This document shows positions 8,561 through 58,805 of a stretch of 64,000 nucleotides of DNA, in pieces. Every line of letters starts with the position of its first letter. Position 1 is the first letter of the stretch. The notes under the pieces are model-generated. The model saw only the letters and a program-made list of their open reading frames with translations. It was not told the DNA's origin and ran no database searches. Source of the stretch: Treponema sp. Marseille-Q4130 (lineage in GTDB: Bacteria > Spirochaetota > Spirochaetia > Treponematales > Treponemataceae); assembly GCF_014334325.1 (NCBI RefSeq), contig NZ_JACSET010000006.1, forward strand, positions 97,459 to 161,458, given 5' to 3'. The translations under genes and the position numbers were made by a program.

Positions 8561-8712
8561 CGTGACAGACGTATTATCAATTTTCCGTTGAATAATTATA
8601 TTTTGAAAGTAATTTCCAAATAAGAGTATGCTTTCGGCGAGAACTTCGTTAGTTGCAATCAGATCGTTCGGTTTCGCATTACTGATAAGTTTGCCCTGCA
8701 AACTTACAGTTA

Positions 8713-8742
8713 AAAACGCCGCAGCCTTTCAGCGGCGCTTTT
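8713..8742 (+). terminator. Terminator of the FN3 operon
   Basis: CGCCGC and GCGGCG pair around a 9-base loop and are flanked by an A run on one side and a T run on the other. It could stop transcription from either direction between the convergent genes. Confidence 0.65.
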
Positions 8743-8855
8743 AAATCTTCCTTAAAATATGGCATTGCAGAAAATATCAATTTTCGAAAATGCCGCATTC
8801 GTGCGCAAAAGCGCACACGTACATCCGCGAGTTTTCTTTTGAAAACTCGAAGTTA

Positions 8856-8885
8856 AAAGCACCGCGCCATCTGTGCGGTGCTTTT
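8856..8885 (-). terminator. Terminator after the zinc-ribbon gene
   Basis: The 11-bp perfect stem AAAAGCACCGC/GCGGTGCTTTT starts 4 bases beyond the stop codon of the minus-strand gene at 8890. It ends the alpha operon on this side. Confidence 0.75.
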
Positions 8886-8889
8886 ACTT

Positions 8890-9141: not shown

Positions 9142-9330
9142 ACATACTCCCATAAAAACTTTTGCAGGATGTTTCAACATCCGAAAAAGTTTTTAGTCGT
9201 GCGCGCGCCTCGCAACGAGCGCGTAGGCGCGAAGTTTCGAGCGGCGCACATGTCGAATAGTCGAGTTTGCAACGCAAACTCGAAATACGAAACAACGGCG
9301 ATATTTTAGACGGCGTTTCGTATCATCTCC
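9142..9330 (-). promoter_or_regulatory. Structured 5' leader RNA, copy 1
   Basis: This is the leader of the zinc-ribbon gene. On the minus strand it has P1 (ATACGAAAC/GTTTCGTAT, arms at 315-323 and 285-293 of the 9000s) closing the loop CCGTCTAAAATATCGCCGT. Next comes P2 (CGAGTTTGC/GCAAACTCG, 9261-9283, here with a 3-base loop), a GC-rich P3, and P4 (AAAACTTTT/AAAAGTTTT with an inner GGATGT/ACATCC stem, 9154-9195). The Shine-Dalgarno GGGAG and the ATG follow at once. The same order of helices recurs at 42069-42390 and 57320-57545. Confidence 0.8.
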
Positions 9331-9359
9331 CATAACGTTTACGGAAAACGTCGGTTTTC

Positions 9360-40676: not shown

Positions 40677-42068
40677 TCAGTGCAGGAAAAGAGACAGAAT
40701 GAATATTTCAACGACGCCTGCGATACCGAGTACGAGCGTACCGAGTGTCTGCGTCCTATAACCGCGCTCGGGCGACATCGCGCCGAAGTTCGTGACGACC
40801 CAAAAATACGAATCGTTCGCGTGACTTACGGTCATGGCACCGGCGCCGATCGCCATACACGCGAGAGCCGCCCGCACCGGAGAATCGAGACCGAGTACCG
40901 GAAGCAGCGGAGCGATGATGCCCGCCGAAGTTACGAGCGCGACGGTCGAAGAGCCTTGAGCCGTTTTCAAAATCGCCGAGAGTATAAACGGGAAGAGGAT
41001 GCCCATCGTCTGGAGCACCGTCGCGTGCATTTTGATATAGTTCACCATATCGGAAGACGCGATAACTTTTCCGAGAACGCCGCCGGCAGCCGTGATAAAC
41101 AGGATCGGACCGGTCACTTTGAGCGTTTCTTCGACGATAGCGTAAAAATCCTTTATTTTATCGGCGAGCTTGAGCTGGAGCACTGCAAAGGCGGTACCCA
41201 CGCCGAGCGCGATAACCGGAGTTCCGAGAAATTTAACAACATCGATTCCGAAGCCTTGCATCTTTGCCATCGAGACAACGGATGACGCCGCCATGAGGAG
41301 AACGGGAACGACTATCGGCGCGAGCGCATTAAAGCCGTTCGGAAGTTTTTTAAATTCGGCGACGAGCTGTTCGTAGCTTTTCGTCACCTGTCCCGCATCG
41401 GCTTCATCATCCGCGCGTACGCGGGCACCGATGTATTTTGCAAAAAAATAACCTGCGATGAGCGGCAAAATAGAACAGAGCGCGCCCATGCCCATAACGA
41501 GCAAAAGGTTATCGCCGATACCGAGCGTATTCGCAGCGGCGATCGGGCCCGGCGTCGGCGGGATAAATACGTGCGAAATATACAAACCGAACGAAAGCCC
41601 CGTCGTCATTGCGACGGAAGAAGCGGCGGTTCTGTTGACGAGCGCTTTGCGGATGGGGTTTAAGATAACGAAACCCGAGTCGCAGAATACGGGAATGGAA
41701 ACAACCCAACCCATGAGCTCTATGGCGAGAACGGGATGATTTTTCCCGACGAGATGAATGATCATATCGGCGAGTTTCAAAGCAGCGCCTGTTTTTTCGA
41801 GTATCGAACCGATGAGCGCACCGAGGATGATGACGATACCGATGCTCGTAAACGTGCCGGCAAAGCCCGCTCCGATGACGTTTGCAAGTCCCTGCACCGT
41901 TTTTCCGTCGGCGGTTTTCACGTTGACGAGCGGAATGCCGGCGATCAAGCCGAGCAGCAGTGAAATGCACATGATCGAAATAAAGGGGTGAATTTTAAAT
42001 TTTGAGATCGCAAACACCATGACGATGATCGCAATGACAAAAACAAAAATAAACGGTAAGCCTGTCAT
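40677..42068 (-). CDS. GntP-family permease
   Basis: A 463-residue inner-membrane transporter with about 12 hydrophobic helices. Family patterns are IGIVIILGALIGSILEKTGAA, VFCDSGFVILNPI, ISHVFIPPTPGPIAAA and AQGSSTVALVTSAGIIAPL. GntP members import gluconate or related sugar acids with protons; the substrate here cannot be told. The start MTGLPFIF follows GGGAGG. No catabolic genes adjoin it. It carries the longest copy of the repeated leader RNA upstream, which suggests post-transcriptional control. Confidence 0.9.
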   Translation of the reverse strand: MTGLPFIFVFVIAIIVMVFAISKFKIHPFISIMCISLLLGLIAGIPLVNVKTADGKTVQGLANVIGAGFAGTFTSIGIVIILGALIGSILEKTGAALKLADMIIHLVGKNHPVLAIELMGWVVSIPVFCDSGFVILNPIRKALVNRTAASSVAMTTGLSFGLYISHVFIPPTPGPIAAANTLGIGDNLLLVMGMGALCSILPLIAGYFFAKYIGARVRADDEADAGQVTKSYEQLVAEFKKLPNGFNALAPIVVPVLLMAASSVVSMAKMQGFGIDVVKFLGTPVIALGVGTAFAVLQLKLADKIKDFYAIVEETLKVTGPILFITAAGGVLGKVIASSDMVNYIKMHATVLQTMGILFPFILSAILKTAQGSSTVALVTSAGIIAPLLPVLGLDSPVRAALACMAIGAGAMTVSHANDSYFWVVTNFGAMSPERGYRTQTLGTLVLGIAGVVEIFILSLFLH

Positions 42069-42390
42069 ATATAATGACCTCCCATAAAAACTTTTGCAGG
42101 AAATAGCAATTTCCGAAAAAGTTTTTAGCCGTGCGCGTGCGCGCACACGTTCAATAGTCGAGTTTGCAAAATAAAGCGTATCGTATTCATGCGATTTTTA
42201 TCGAAACGGCACGTATACACGTCTTCTGCAAACATCCGCGCAAACTCGAGATAAGAACGCTGCGATTTCGAGCAATGCGCAGAAATCGCGAGTGTCTCCC
42301 ATATATAGAAAAACGCTTCAGCGTTTTTCGTCTCCGGACTTTAGTGTCGGCGATATTTCAGACGACACTTTTTATCATGCCTCCTTTTTT
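42069..42390 (-). promoter_or_regulatory. Structured 5' leader RNA, copy 2
   Basis: This is the permease leader. On the minus strand it has P1 (AGTGTCG/CGACACT, 42343-42369) closing the loop TCTGAAATATCG and a 90-base insertion with its own hairpin (AAAACGC/GCGTTTT, near 42310-42328). Next come P2 (TCGAGTTTGC/GCAAACTCGA, arms 42240-42249 and 42158-42167) and P4 (42086-42126, inner GGAAAT/ATTTCC), then GGGAGG and the ATG. The 72 bases inside P2 differ from copy 3 at only 4 positions by eye. Confidence 0.8.
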
Positions 42391-57319: not shown

Positions 57320-57545
57320 AAGGAGGTACGATAAAAAGCGCCGTCTGAAATATCGCCGTCGCTTTTTATCTCGAGTTTGCTTGGATGTTTGCAGAAGACG
57401 TGTATACGTGGCGTTTCGATAAGAATCGCATGAATACGATACGCTTTATTTTGCAAACTCGACTATTGAACGTGTGCGCTCACGCGCACGGCTAAAACTT
57501 TTTCGGAAATTGATATTTCCTGCAAAAGTTTTTATGGGAGTTAAC
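57320..57545 (+). promoter_or_regulatory. Structured 5' leader RNA, copy 3
   Basis: This is the clearest copy. P1 is GATAAAAAGCG (57330-57340) with CGCTTTTTATC (57360-57370), closing CCGTCTGAAATATCGCCGT. P2 is TCGAGTTTGC (57371-57380) with GCAAACTCGA (57453-57462). P3 is GTGCGC/GCGCAC (57474-57489). P4 is AAAACTTTT/AAAAGTTTT with inner GGAAAT/ATTTCC (57494-57532). GGGAG (57536-57540) and the ATG at 57546 follow. A TAATAT at 57302 may be the -10 element. Confidence 0.85.
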
Positions 57546-58805
57546 ATGAAGAGATCGATCATCGTCGCAGCGCTCGTCGCTGCAGTCGTCGGAACCGCGG
57601 CTTTTGCCAACGGTGTTGAAAACAAAACGAATATGAATCCCGGATACTTGCGAAATCCGAGCCGCAATGCGGAAACGAAGCGCCCCGAAGCGGTGTTTTA
57701 CAATATCGCGGGTACGGGCTTTTTGGAAGACGGCCTGTACTTCGATGCAGGCAATCAATTCGTATTTAAAAAATACACGAACTCGTTTCCGAAAAACGCA
57801 CTTCCTCCTGCTATCGTGGACGAAAAGGATTTCAGTGATACGACGACCGTGTGGCTCTACCCGAACGCCGACATCGTATACAAGCGCGGCCCCTTTGCCG
57901 TGTTCGGAAATTTCGGCATCTACGCCGGCGGCGGAAAACTTTCGTACAAAGACGGTACGACCGTAACAGCCGGTGCACTTGCAAGAAATCCCCCTCTTAT
58001 CGCCGCCGCACAAAATCATTCGGTAGAGCTTTCGTCCATGACCTACGGAGAGCAGGTCGGATTTACGTACTGCCTGAAAAATTTTATCTCTTTTTCCGGC
58101 GCGCTGCGCCTGCTCCAGGCGACGCAATCGATGGAGTTAAAGAGCGATAATGCGGTTTTTGTCGGTGTTAACGGCGGAAACAAAGTGAGCTACGATGCAA
58201 GCGCGTTCGGCGTCGGCGGCGTGTTCGGCATCGACGTGCGCCCCTTCCCCGCCCTCACGCTTTCGACGCAGTTTCAGCTTCATTCCGATATGAAATATGA
58301 AGTAAAGAACGCCAAGGGAAATATAGGAGCCGGACTCGGTATCGCGGACGGTGAAACGTTCCACACCGATTTGCCTGCGGTGCTGAACATGGGAGCGGGC
58401 TATCAAGTGCTGAAACCGCTGTACGTATCCGCAAGCTTCAACTACTACTTCAACTCGTTCGCACAGCTCAATTCCGTACTCAGCAAAAAATTCGGCAAAT
58501 CCGACTACAGCGATTCGTGGGAATTGGCGGCGGGAGCGGACTACGACATCAACGATAAAGTGACGGCGAGTTTGGGATTGTCCTACGGCAACCAGGGGAC
58601 AAAGAAAACGGTAAACAACGCATTCAGCCCCGTTTTGGACAACATCGCGATCGGTACCGGCGTCGAATATCGGCCTATCGATAACCTCACGCTCACGCTC
58701 GGCCTCTTGTACATACAGTATTTTAAGCAGGATTATGGAGCCAGTGAACTCAACAAGCAGATCTTTATGACGAGCATCGGTGCAACCTACCGGCTCCCCA
58801 TATAA
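57546..58805 (+). CDS. OmpP1/FadL-like outer-membrane protein
   Basis: A 419-residue protein with a signal peptide (cleavage about AFAN, residue 21). The N-terminal part has NPGYLRNPSRNAET and AVFYNIAGTGFLEDGLYFDAGNQFVF, matching the treponemal FadL-like family ('hatch' region followed by barrel strands). The remainder alternates amphipathic strands and ends in the aromatic-poor but barrel-like TSIGATYRLPI. Such proteins form pores for hydrophobic molecules in the outer membrane. It is a single gene with the repeated leader RNA, so its amount may be set by that RNA. Confidence 0.85.
   Translation: MKRSIIVAALVAAVVGTAAFANGVENKTNMNPGYLRNPSRNAETKRPEAVFYNIAGTGFLEDGLYFDAGNQFVFKKYTNSFPKNALPPAIVDEKDFSDTTTVWLYPNADIVYKRGPFAVFGNFGIYAGGGKLSYKDGTTVTAGALARNPPLIAAAQNHSVELSSMTYGEQVGFTYCLKNFISFSGALRLLQATQSMELKSDNAVFVGVNGGNKVSYDASAFGVGGVFGIDVRPFPALTLSTQFQLHSDMKYEVKNAKGNIGAGLGIADGETFHTDLPAVLNMGAGYQVLKPLYVSASFNYYFNSFAQLNSVLSKKFGKSDYSDSWELAAGADYDINDKVTASLGLSYGNQGTKKTVNNAFSPVLDNIAIGTGVEYRPIDNLTLTLGLLYIQYFKQDYGASELNKQIFMTSIGATYRLPI

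Follow-up and report, generated by a model that had tools for sequence, protein, structure and literature searches.

A structured, probably mobile element at the Shine-Dalgarno sequences of Treponema genes, with the Rfam families TD-1 and TD-2 as its likely parts

Two RNA families held in Rfam, TD-1 (RF03155; type Cis-reg) and TD-2 (RF03162; type Gene; sRNA), both of clan CL00124, are the closest described relatives of the element reported here. The founding description of TD-1, reportedly the 2017 paper on '224 candidate structured RNAs', may already have noticed repeats; our literature searches found nothing that names TD-1 as mobile or recasts TD-1 and TD-2. Among mobile DNAs, the REP/RAYT and IS200/IS605-derived elements have hairpin ends beside a GGAG- or GTAG-like tetramer, and the BOX and RUP repeats of pneumococci are modular, structured and present in many copies near genes. 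We know of no precise Shine-Dalgarno (SD) target or SD duplication for BOX or RUP. The element shares with TD-1 the helices P2 to P4 and the SD-proximal end, and differs in being read here as mobile, whereas TD-1 is classed as cis-regulatory; TD-2 covers P1 and P2 of the element, but its strand is always opposite to that of TD-1 in the 17 loci where both match. With the REP/RAYT and IS200/IS605-derived palindromes it has in common hairpin ends by a GGAG/GTAG-like tetramer, directionality and a non-autonomous character, and with BOX and RUP the many structured, modular copies near genes. Unlike REP/RAYT and IS200/IS605-derived elements, it has no tracking Y1 enzyme, has a duplicated target and conserves four helices.

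The window, by which we mean the whole stretch of 64,000 nucleotides that was analysed, had been the subject of a sequence-only reading, which described a three-copy, structured leader, likely a new cis-regulatory element, before three unrelated genes. Re-reading of the sequence bears out the three copies in their places, in sense and followed by GGGAG and a start codon, and all three have the same order of helices: P1 with its loop CGTCTRAAATATCGCCG, then P2, P3 and P4 (Table 1). Absent from that reading is the SD at the start of each copy. The left edges run AAGGAGG-TAC-GATAAAAAGCG before the FadL-like gene, AAGGAGG-CAT-GATAAAAAG before the GntP permease and ATGGGAG-AT-GATACGAAAC before the small CxxC protein. 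Two of the gene identities hold, FadL-like and GntP both having Pfam matches; the third, a zinc ribbon, gave no match in a Pfam search, and the label therefore rests on CxxC pairs seen by eye. The fold of the FadL leader has a z-score of -3.43 against shuffles, 1 of 200 of which was equally good, and P2 of this copy is placed by the family alignment because a single-sequence fold pairs the region differently. Around the same copy, no intrinsic terminator or sigma-70 promoter patterns were found. The small CxxC protein gene has element copies on both flanks, one before it and two in tandem behind its stop.

Table 1. Features of the element copies and adjoining genes in the window (window positions).
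Feature	Position	Strand	Evidence
5' (old) SD GGAGG, left edge of FadL copy	57322..57326	+	sequence
P1 hairpin of FadL copy, GATAAAAAGCG / CGCTTTTTATC	57330..57370	+	sequence, fold, family covariation
P1 loop CGTCTGAAATATCGCCG, near-invariant	57342..57358	+	21 exact genome copies vs 0 of reversed pattern
P2, CGAGTTTGC / GCAAACTCG, with long variable insert	57372..57461	+	sequence, family alignment
P3 hairpin, GTGTGCGC..GCGCAC	57472..57489	+	sequence, fold
P4 terminal hairpin, AAAACTTTTTC GGAAAT TGAT ATTTCC TGCAAAAGTTTTTAT, right end of element	57494..57535	+	sequence, fold
Rfam TD-1 match of FadL copy, 52.2 bits (gathering 64.5)	57364..57539	+	relaxed-threshold Rfam search
3' SD GGGAG of FadL-like gene	57536..57540	+	sequence, flank test
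FadL-like outer membrane protein gene	57546..58802	+	PF03349, 2.1e-15
GntP-leader copy, SD to SD, P1 enlarged by an insert of ~90 bases	42078..42384	-	sequence
GntP permease gene	40680..42068	-	PF02447, 3.5e-81
Copy before small CxxC protein, SD to SD, P1 GATACGAAAC/GTTTCGTAT	9147..9331	-	sequence
B-type copy, P1-P2 part, just behind stop of CxxC gene	8820..8887	-	model R1, E=3.5e-6
Second, weaker copy in tandem, probably decayed	8676..8746	-	model R1, E=4.5e-4

Comparison of the copies confirms an ordered, RNA-like element whose fold is real, and the compensatory changes that had been claimed for it are present. Among 38 copies, 12 of the 13 P1 pairs show changes on both sides, and the covariation score of P1-P2 is 0.397 against 0.105 for shuffled and at most 0.128 for slid controls, over which the structure has an advantage in that it was taken from the same sequences. 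The count covers P1 and P2, the pairs of P3 and P4 having been aligned only, and the outer P2 stem says little on covariation because it is nearly invariant across the family. The inner P4 stem occurs in the window genome as GGAAAT/ATTTCC, GGAAGT/ACTTCC, GAAAGT/ACTTTC, GGATGT/ACATCC and GGATAT/ATATCC, and 9 of 28 copies from this genome depart from a simple P4-stem rule. Stems are shared among the copies within a species, from which we infer that selection on a mobile lineage keeps the fold; the pairing of P1 and P4 in variant forms from copy to copy could in addition reflect selection at each gene, beyond lineage alone. Pairing of the P1 loop with the TATT joiner that follows P2, as a pseudoknot, was rejected (complementarity 4.92 against 4.86 shuffled, with 194 of 500 shuffles as high, in a test where the joiners of L155 and L068 were cut at the wrong place), as was an upstream reading frame from the left SD (ATG ATA AAA .. 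GTC TGA), which some copies show on visual inspection but which is not conserved, many having ACG at that place.

The P1 loop, already described as almost invariant, is 17 bases long and is found 21 times without mismatch in the 2.79 Mb genome, or 34 times with up to one mismatch, and the reversed-pattern control gave none in either case. The figure of three copies proved too low: a covariance model of the 5' half (P1-P2) has, at E<=0.01, at least 72 matches in the window genome and at least 43 in genome G110, both of which are lower bounds because only part of the candidates was scored (150 of 1983 and 150 of 1509, with rough E-values), and two extra copies lie within the window itself. Many copies in the window genome are closely similar to one another, and head-to-tail tandem arrays occur with near-constant periods of 165 and 174 bases; such arrays were seen at L301 (G000:C1:29027-29573), L154, L231 and L233. 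Stretches of the window genome are 90-97% identical to T. socranskii loci, from which we judge it to be a close relative of that species, within the Treponemataceae. TD-1 is present in 62 of 145 genomes of this family (32 above the cut-off) and, when genomes were drawn from the whole order, in 42 of 194, all 42 of them Treponemataceae; both surveys used strict filters that lose weak matches. Among the genomes searched, the element is confined to Treponemataceae.

The sequence-only reading knew of no riboswitch with this loop and proposed a covariance model and a search of genomes and Rfam, which yielded more copies as well as overlap with the two known families. At gathering thresholds, the Rfam search gave nothing in the leaders and only a tRNA in the window. 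At relaxed thresholds, the FadL copy aligns with the full TD-1 model (positions 1-120, covering P2, P3 and P4) at E=5.7e-8, with a score below gathering, and other copies, for example L018, L040 and L152, reach the gathering score. Because the TD-1 model starts on the 3' strand of P1, neither the left SD nor the P1 hairpin with its loop is included in it. TD-2 aligns with the P1-P2 part in reverse orientation: it was found at 17 of 20 TD-1 loci with E<=0.01 (14 above gathering), in all 17 overlapping TD-1 but on the other strand; no match lies on the element's own strand, and that of the FadL copy is weak (E=0.66). With TD-2 antisense to the 5' part and TD-1 equal to the 3' part, Rfam holds one element as two families. 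To judge from these alignments, a single element contributes its 3' part to TD-1 and the antisense of its 5' part to TD-2, and the claim of novelty is retained only in that most of P1, with the loop, is missing from the TD-1 model and that the window copies score below gathering. Candidate RNAs of Treponema that lie upstream of ribosomal protein genes are also named in PMC8040213.

The assertion that this is no mobile repeat is contradicted by orthologous empty sites and by the high copy number. We compared 18 filled sites (17 loci and GntP) with relatives, and at 12 of them (GntP, L003, L005, L007, L013, L014, L022, L028, L037, L148, L153 and L156) at least one relative has a clean, uninterrupted leader; the GntP site is empty in both T. 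socranskii subsp. paredis and subsp. socranskii. The insertion point lies exactly at the native SD, and a second SD precedes the start codon. Upstream identity in 18 filled-empty pairs is 32-40 of 40 bases and downstream identity 49-60 of 60. At L153, for example, the relative reads CTACAGGAGTTTTTATGGCACGG and the window genome CTACAGGAGATACGATAAAAAG...AAAAGTTTTTATAGGAGTTTTTATGGCACGG. The FadL site had no match in three relatives; in sister copies, the 12 empty-site comparisons show the SD at this left edge to be the native one. The six other sites (L015, L034, L085, L091, L092 and L151) have diverged leaders or other copies and no clean empty site. A copy is also found in one relative at L254, L255 and L272, and the copy before the small CxxC protein recurs in T. 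socranskii subsp. paredis (L029); copies common to one relative are what insertions of different ages would produce. The uninterrupted leaders at 12 of 18 sites and the insertion at the native SD argue for mobility, and a match to a mobile element is what the sequence-only reading had itself named as counting against its view.

A target site duplication accompanies these insertions and is of variable length. The duplicated SD core measures 4-9 bases in the 12 empty-site comparisons, and across 64 copies the longest common word of left and right SD averages 5.61 bases, against a mean of 4.78 and a maximum of 5.22 in 2000 shuffles. At least six bases are common to both SDs in 29 of the 64 copies (16.4 on average and at most 27 in shuffles); the remaining 35 have five or fewer, and three have only three, so the length of the duplication is not fixed. 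Unusual SDs recur on both sides (GAGAGG at L007, GGAGGAT at L013 and TAGAGGT at L182), which argues that the core on both sides derives from the target. The tandem arrays suggest that direct repeats may exchange sequence, which could account for part of the matching. Solo or 5'-truncated right ends, like TGCAAAAGTTTTTATGGGAG, were also seen before genes (L160-L173 and L266), with a matching left SD in L160 and L164; these are deletion derivatives or footprints.

For the location of copies, we distinguish A-type copies, at SDs, from B-type copies, with GAAGG/GAACG/TAAAG-like targets and P1 stems such as GTTTAAAAGCG and TTTAAATTGAA. In all, 106 copies were placed, some of them mutually orthologous and one (L155) in both the A-type and the TD-1 set. 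Each of the 43 A-type copies examined is in sense and at an SD, 41 being followed within 30 bases by the start of an ORF of 50 codons or more and the other two by another copy; for the window genome alone, 26 of 28 lie just before an ORF start and the other two just before another copy. Among TD-1-derived copies, 41 of 63 precede such an ORF start, and an ORF start on the opposite strand is found at the left end in 8 of the 106. Of the 43 GGAG words that lie outside ORFs within the window, only 13 are SD-like; set against the more generous fraction of 22/52, 43 of 43 A-type copies give a binomial p of 9e-17, for copies that are partly dependent and of which only 28 come from the window genome. 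A pattern search for B-type copies in this genome, with a pattern that was too strict, returned none. By rule, 43 of the 72 covariance-model matches could be placed: 8 at SDs, 13 in tandem and 22 single and off SDs. In 12 of these 22, the stop of an upstream sense ORF (at least 60 codons) lies within 12 bases of the start of the copy, against a baseline of 10% for a stop within a 24-base span. The stop is 5-11 bases before the copy in seven and inside the element's first bases in five, and these five may just as well have inserted within a reading frame. This pattern is suggestive of a gene-end preference of the B-type. Two B-like copies with ATGAAC on both sides (L192 and L227) seem on visual inspection to be inside the end of an ORF, so that insertions are not always outside genes.

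Taken together, we consider it likely that this is a non-autonomous, structured, SD-targeting mobile element, about 140-350 bases long, of which TD-1 and TD-2 are parts. Insertion, its site and orientation, the matching of the two SDs, the tandem arrays and the covariation can be read from sequence comparison; the steps that follow go further. The transferable unit would be the ordered set of four hairpins, P1 with its conserved loop, P2, P3 and P4. The A-type would insert in sense immediately behind a gene's purine-rich SD, leaving the SD core on both sides, and insertion would be tolerated with an SD kept before the start codon; the B-type would use its GAAGG/GAACG/TAAAG-like targets, often at gene ends. 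Copies of the A-type in the window genome are 137-352 bases long and thus too short for a gene. Because of this, and because inverted ends are rare and Y1 does not track the element, the enzyme would be supplied in trans, and it may recognise the folded ends, P1 after the target and P4 before the target copy. Selection on mobility would then maintain the fold, and effects on host translation would probably be secondary. Our searches found no mobilising enzyme, and no autonomous copy was seen among the copies examined.

Sense orientation, SD position, covariation, the fold score of the FadL leader and the Rfam type Cis-reg of TD-1 are all what one would expect of a dedicated cis-regulatory leader, either a riboswitch or protein-binding. 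We nevertheless regard such a leader as quite unlikely, and as proposed by the sequence-only reading it is not supported: orthologous leaders of close relatives are without the element at 12 of 18 sites, B-type copies lie away from gene starts, no terminator or promoter pattern stands near the FadL copy, and the downstream genes are, as had been said, unrelated. The 20 downstream proteins tested in the window genome have no common function and make up no one-pathway or one-ligand set or regulon; they include triosephosphate isomerase, class II aldolase, class V aminotransferase, xanthine/uracil permease, a DisA-type domain, Hsp20, TatD, RelB and a flagellar rod protein, with 3 of the 20 without a family. 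Predicted SD accessibility at 12 sites was 0.40 when empty and 0.59 when filled (p=0.18), and masking or unmasking of the SD was rejected for want of a consistent change. Truncated relics and solo 3' ends would also suit ancient leaders that were lost repeatedly, with no present DNA mobility, but this is highly improbable given that the loop at L005, L148 and L156 is absent from all three relatives, at least one of which has an undivided SD there with well-aligned flanks, and that copies in the window genome are often closely similar.

The layout GRRG-hairpin...hairpin-GRRG on one strand and the directional insertion are both features of single-strand Y1 elements (IS200/IS605 or RAYT/REP-like), with end hairpins on one strand and insertion 3' of GGAG. 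An element of this kind is nonetheless unlikely. Y1_Tnp is found in 12 of 62 TD-1 genomes and in 25 of 83 genomes without TD-1 (a tally combining two surveys that apparently draw the same 145 genomes); it is absent from T. socranskii subsp. paredis, subsp. socranskii and T. parvum, all of which carry the element, and the window genome has one partial match (L180, G000:C12:13986-14192; positions 52-121 of 121). A Y1 transposase as mobiliser is therefore unsupported, its presence not tracking the element. Moreover, two additional internal hairpins are conserved, and the tetramer on the right varies with the target, unlike in IS605, where the element itself supplies the right end. An ordinary MITE of a DDE transposase, with a target duplication of 5-9 bases, would account for the target-like duplication and for a slight similarity of the inverted ends (7.56 of 12 against 7.05 shuffled, with 300 of 300 shuffles lower). 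Only 3 of 36 copies have inverted ends with at least 10/12 identity, however, the A-type is always in sense (43 examined) and P1 is free to change in sequence while its pairing is kept; a MITE is accordingly very unlikely. We think it unlikely, too, that this is a new mobile class that targets the translation boundary (the SD in the A-type, the stop region in the B-type), choosing its target at the RNA level or in an anti-SD-like manner, with the whole four-helix fold as the mobile unit; its gene-end half is weakened by the placement of B-type copies by rule.

On the preferred reading, that of a non-autonomous mobile element, two catalogued RNA families, one cis-regulatory and one sRNA, would be recast as overlapping parts of one mobile element on opposite strands. 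Covariation together with an upstream position can then mislead, since a fold may persist through selection on mobility. The gene is still translatable because the right-hand SD stands before the start codon, and a second SD could in this way let a parasite occupy a leader at its most sensitive point while the gene escapes silencing. Regulation of host genes by the element is possible, and Treponema leaders annotated as TD-1 merit re-examination.

Several smaller observations concern the parts of the element. The 17-base loop word also occurs in 21 viral contigs, where chance occurrence is expected in collections that large, and at non-Treponema loci among the matches listed, where a word of this length is likewise expected by chance. 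At L008 (G000:C12:4938-4954) the exact loop stands without P1 or the remaining element shortly before an SD-like GGAGG, and is either a relic or serves another purpose there. A long A-type variant carries an extra ~90 bases within the 3' strand of P1 (window ~42342-42256, minus strand; also L001, L010, L012 and L017). This stretch holds a hairpin followed by TTTTAT or TATATAT and (G/C)GGAG, is present in 10 of the 28 A-type copies of the window genome by a simple rule, and looks like a nested module. An insert of ~60-70 bases in the P4 loop (TTGATTCG..GCAGAAC..GAGCC..GGCTC) was seen at L010, L012, L150 and L248-L250, in the window genome and the g34 genomes.
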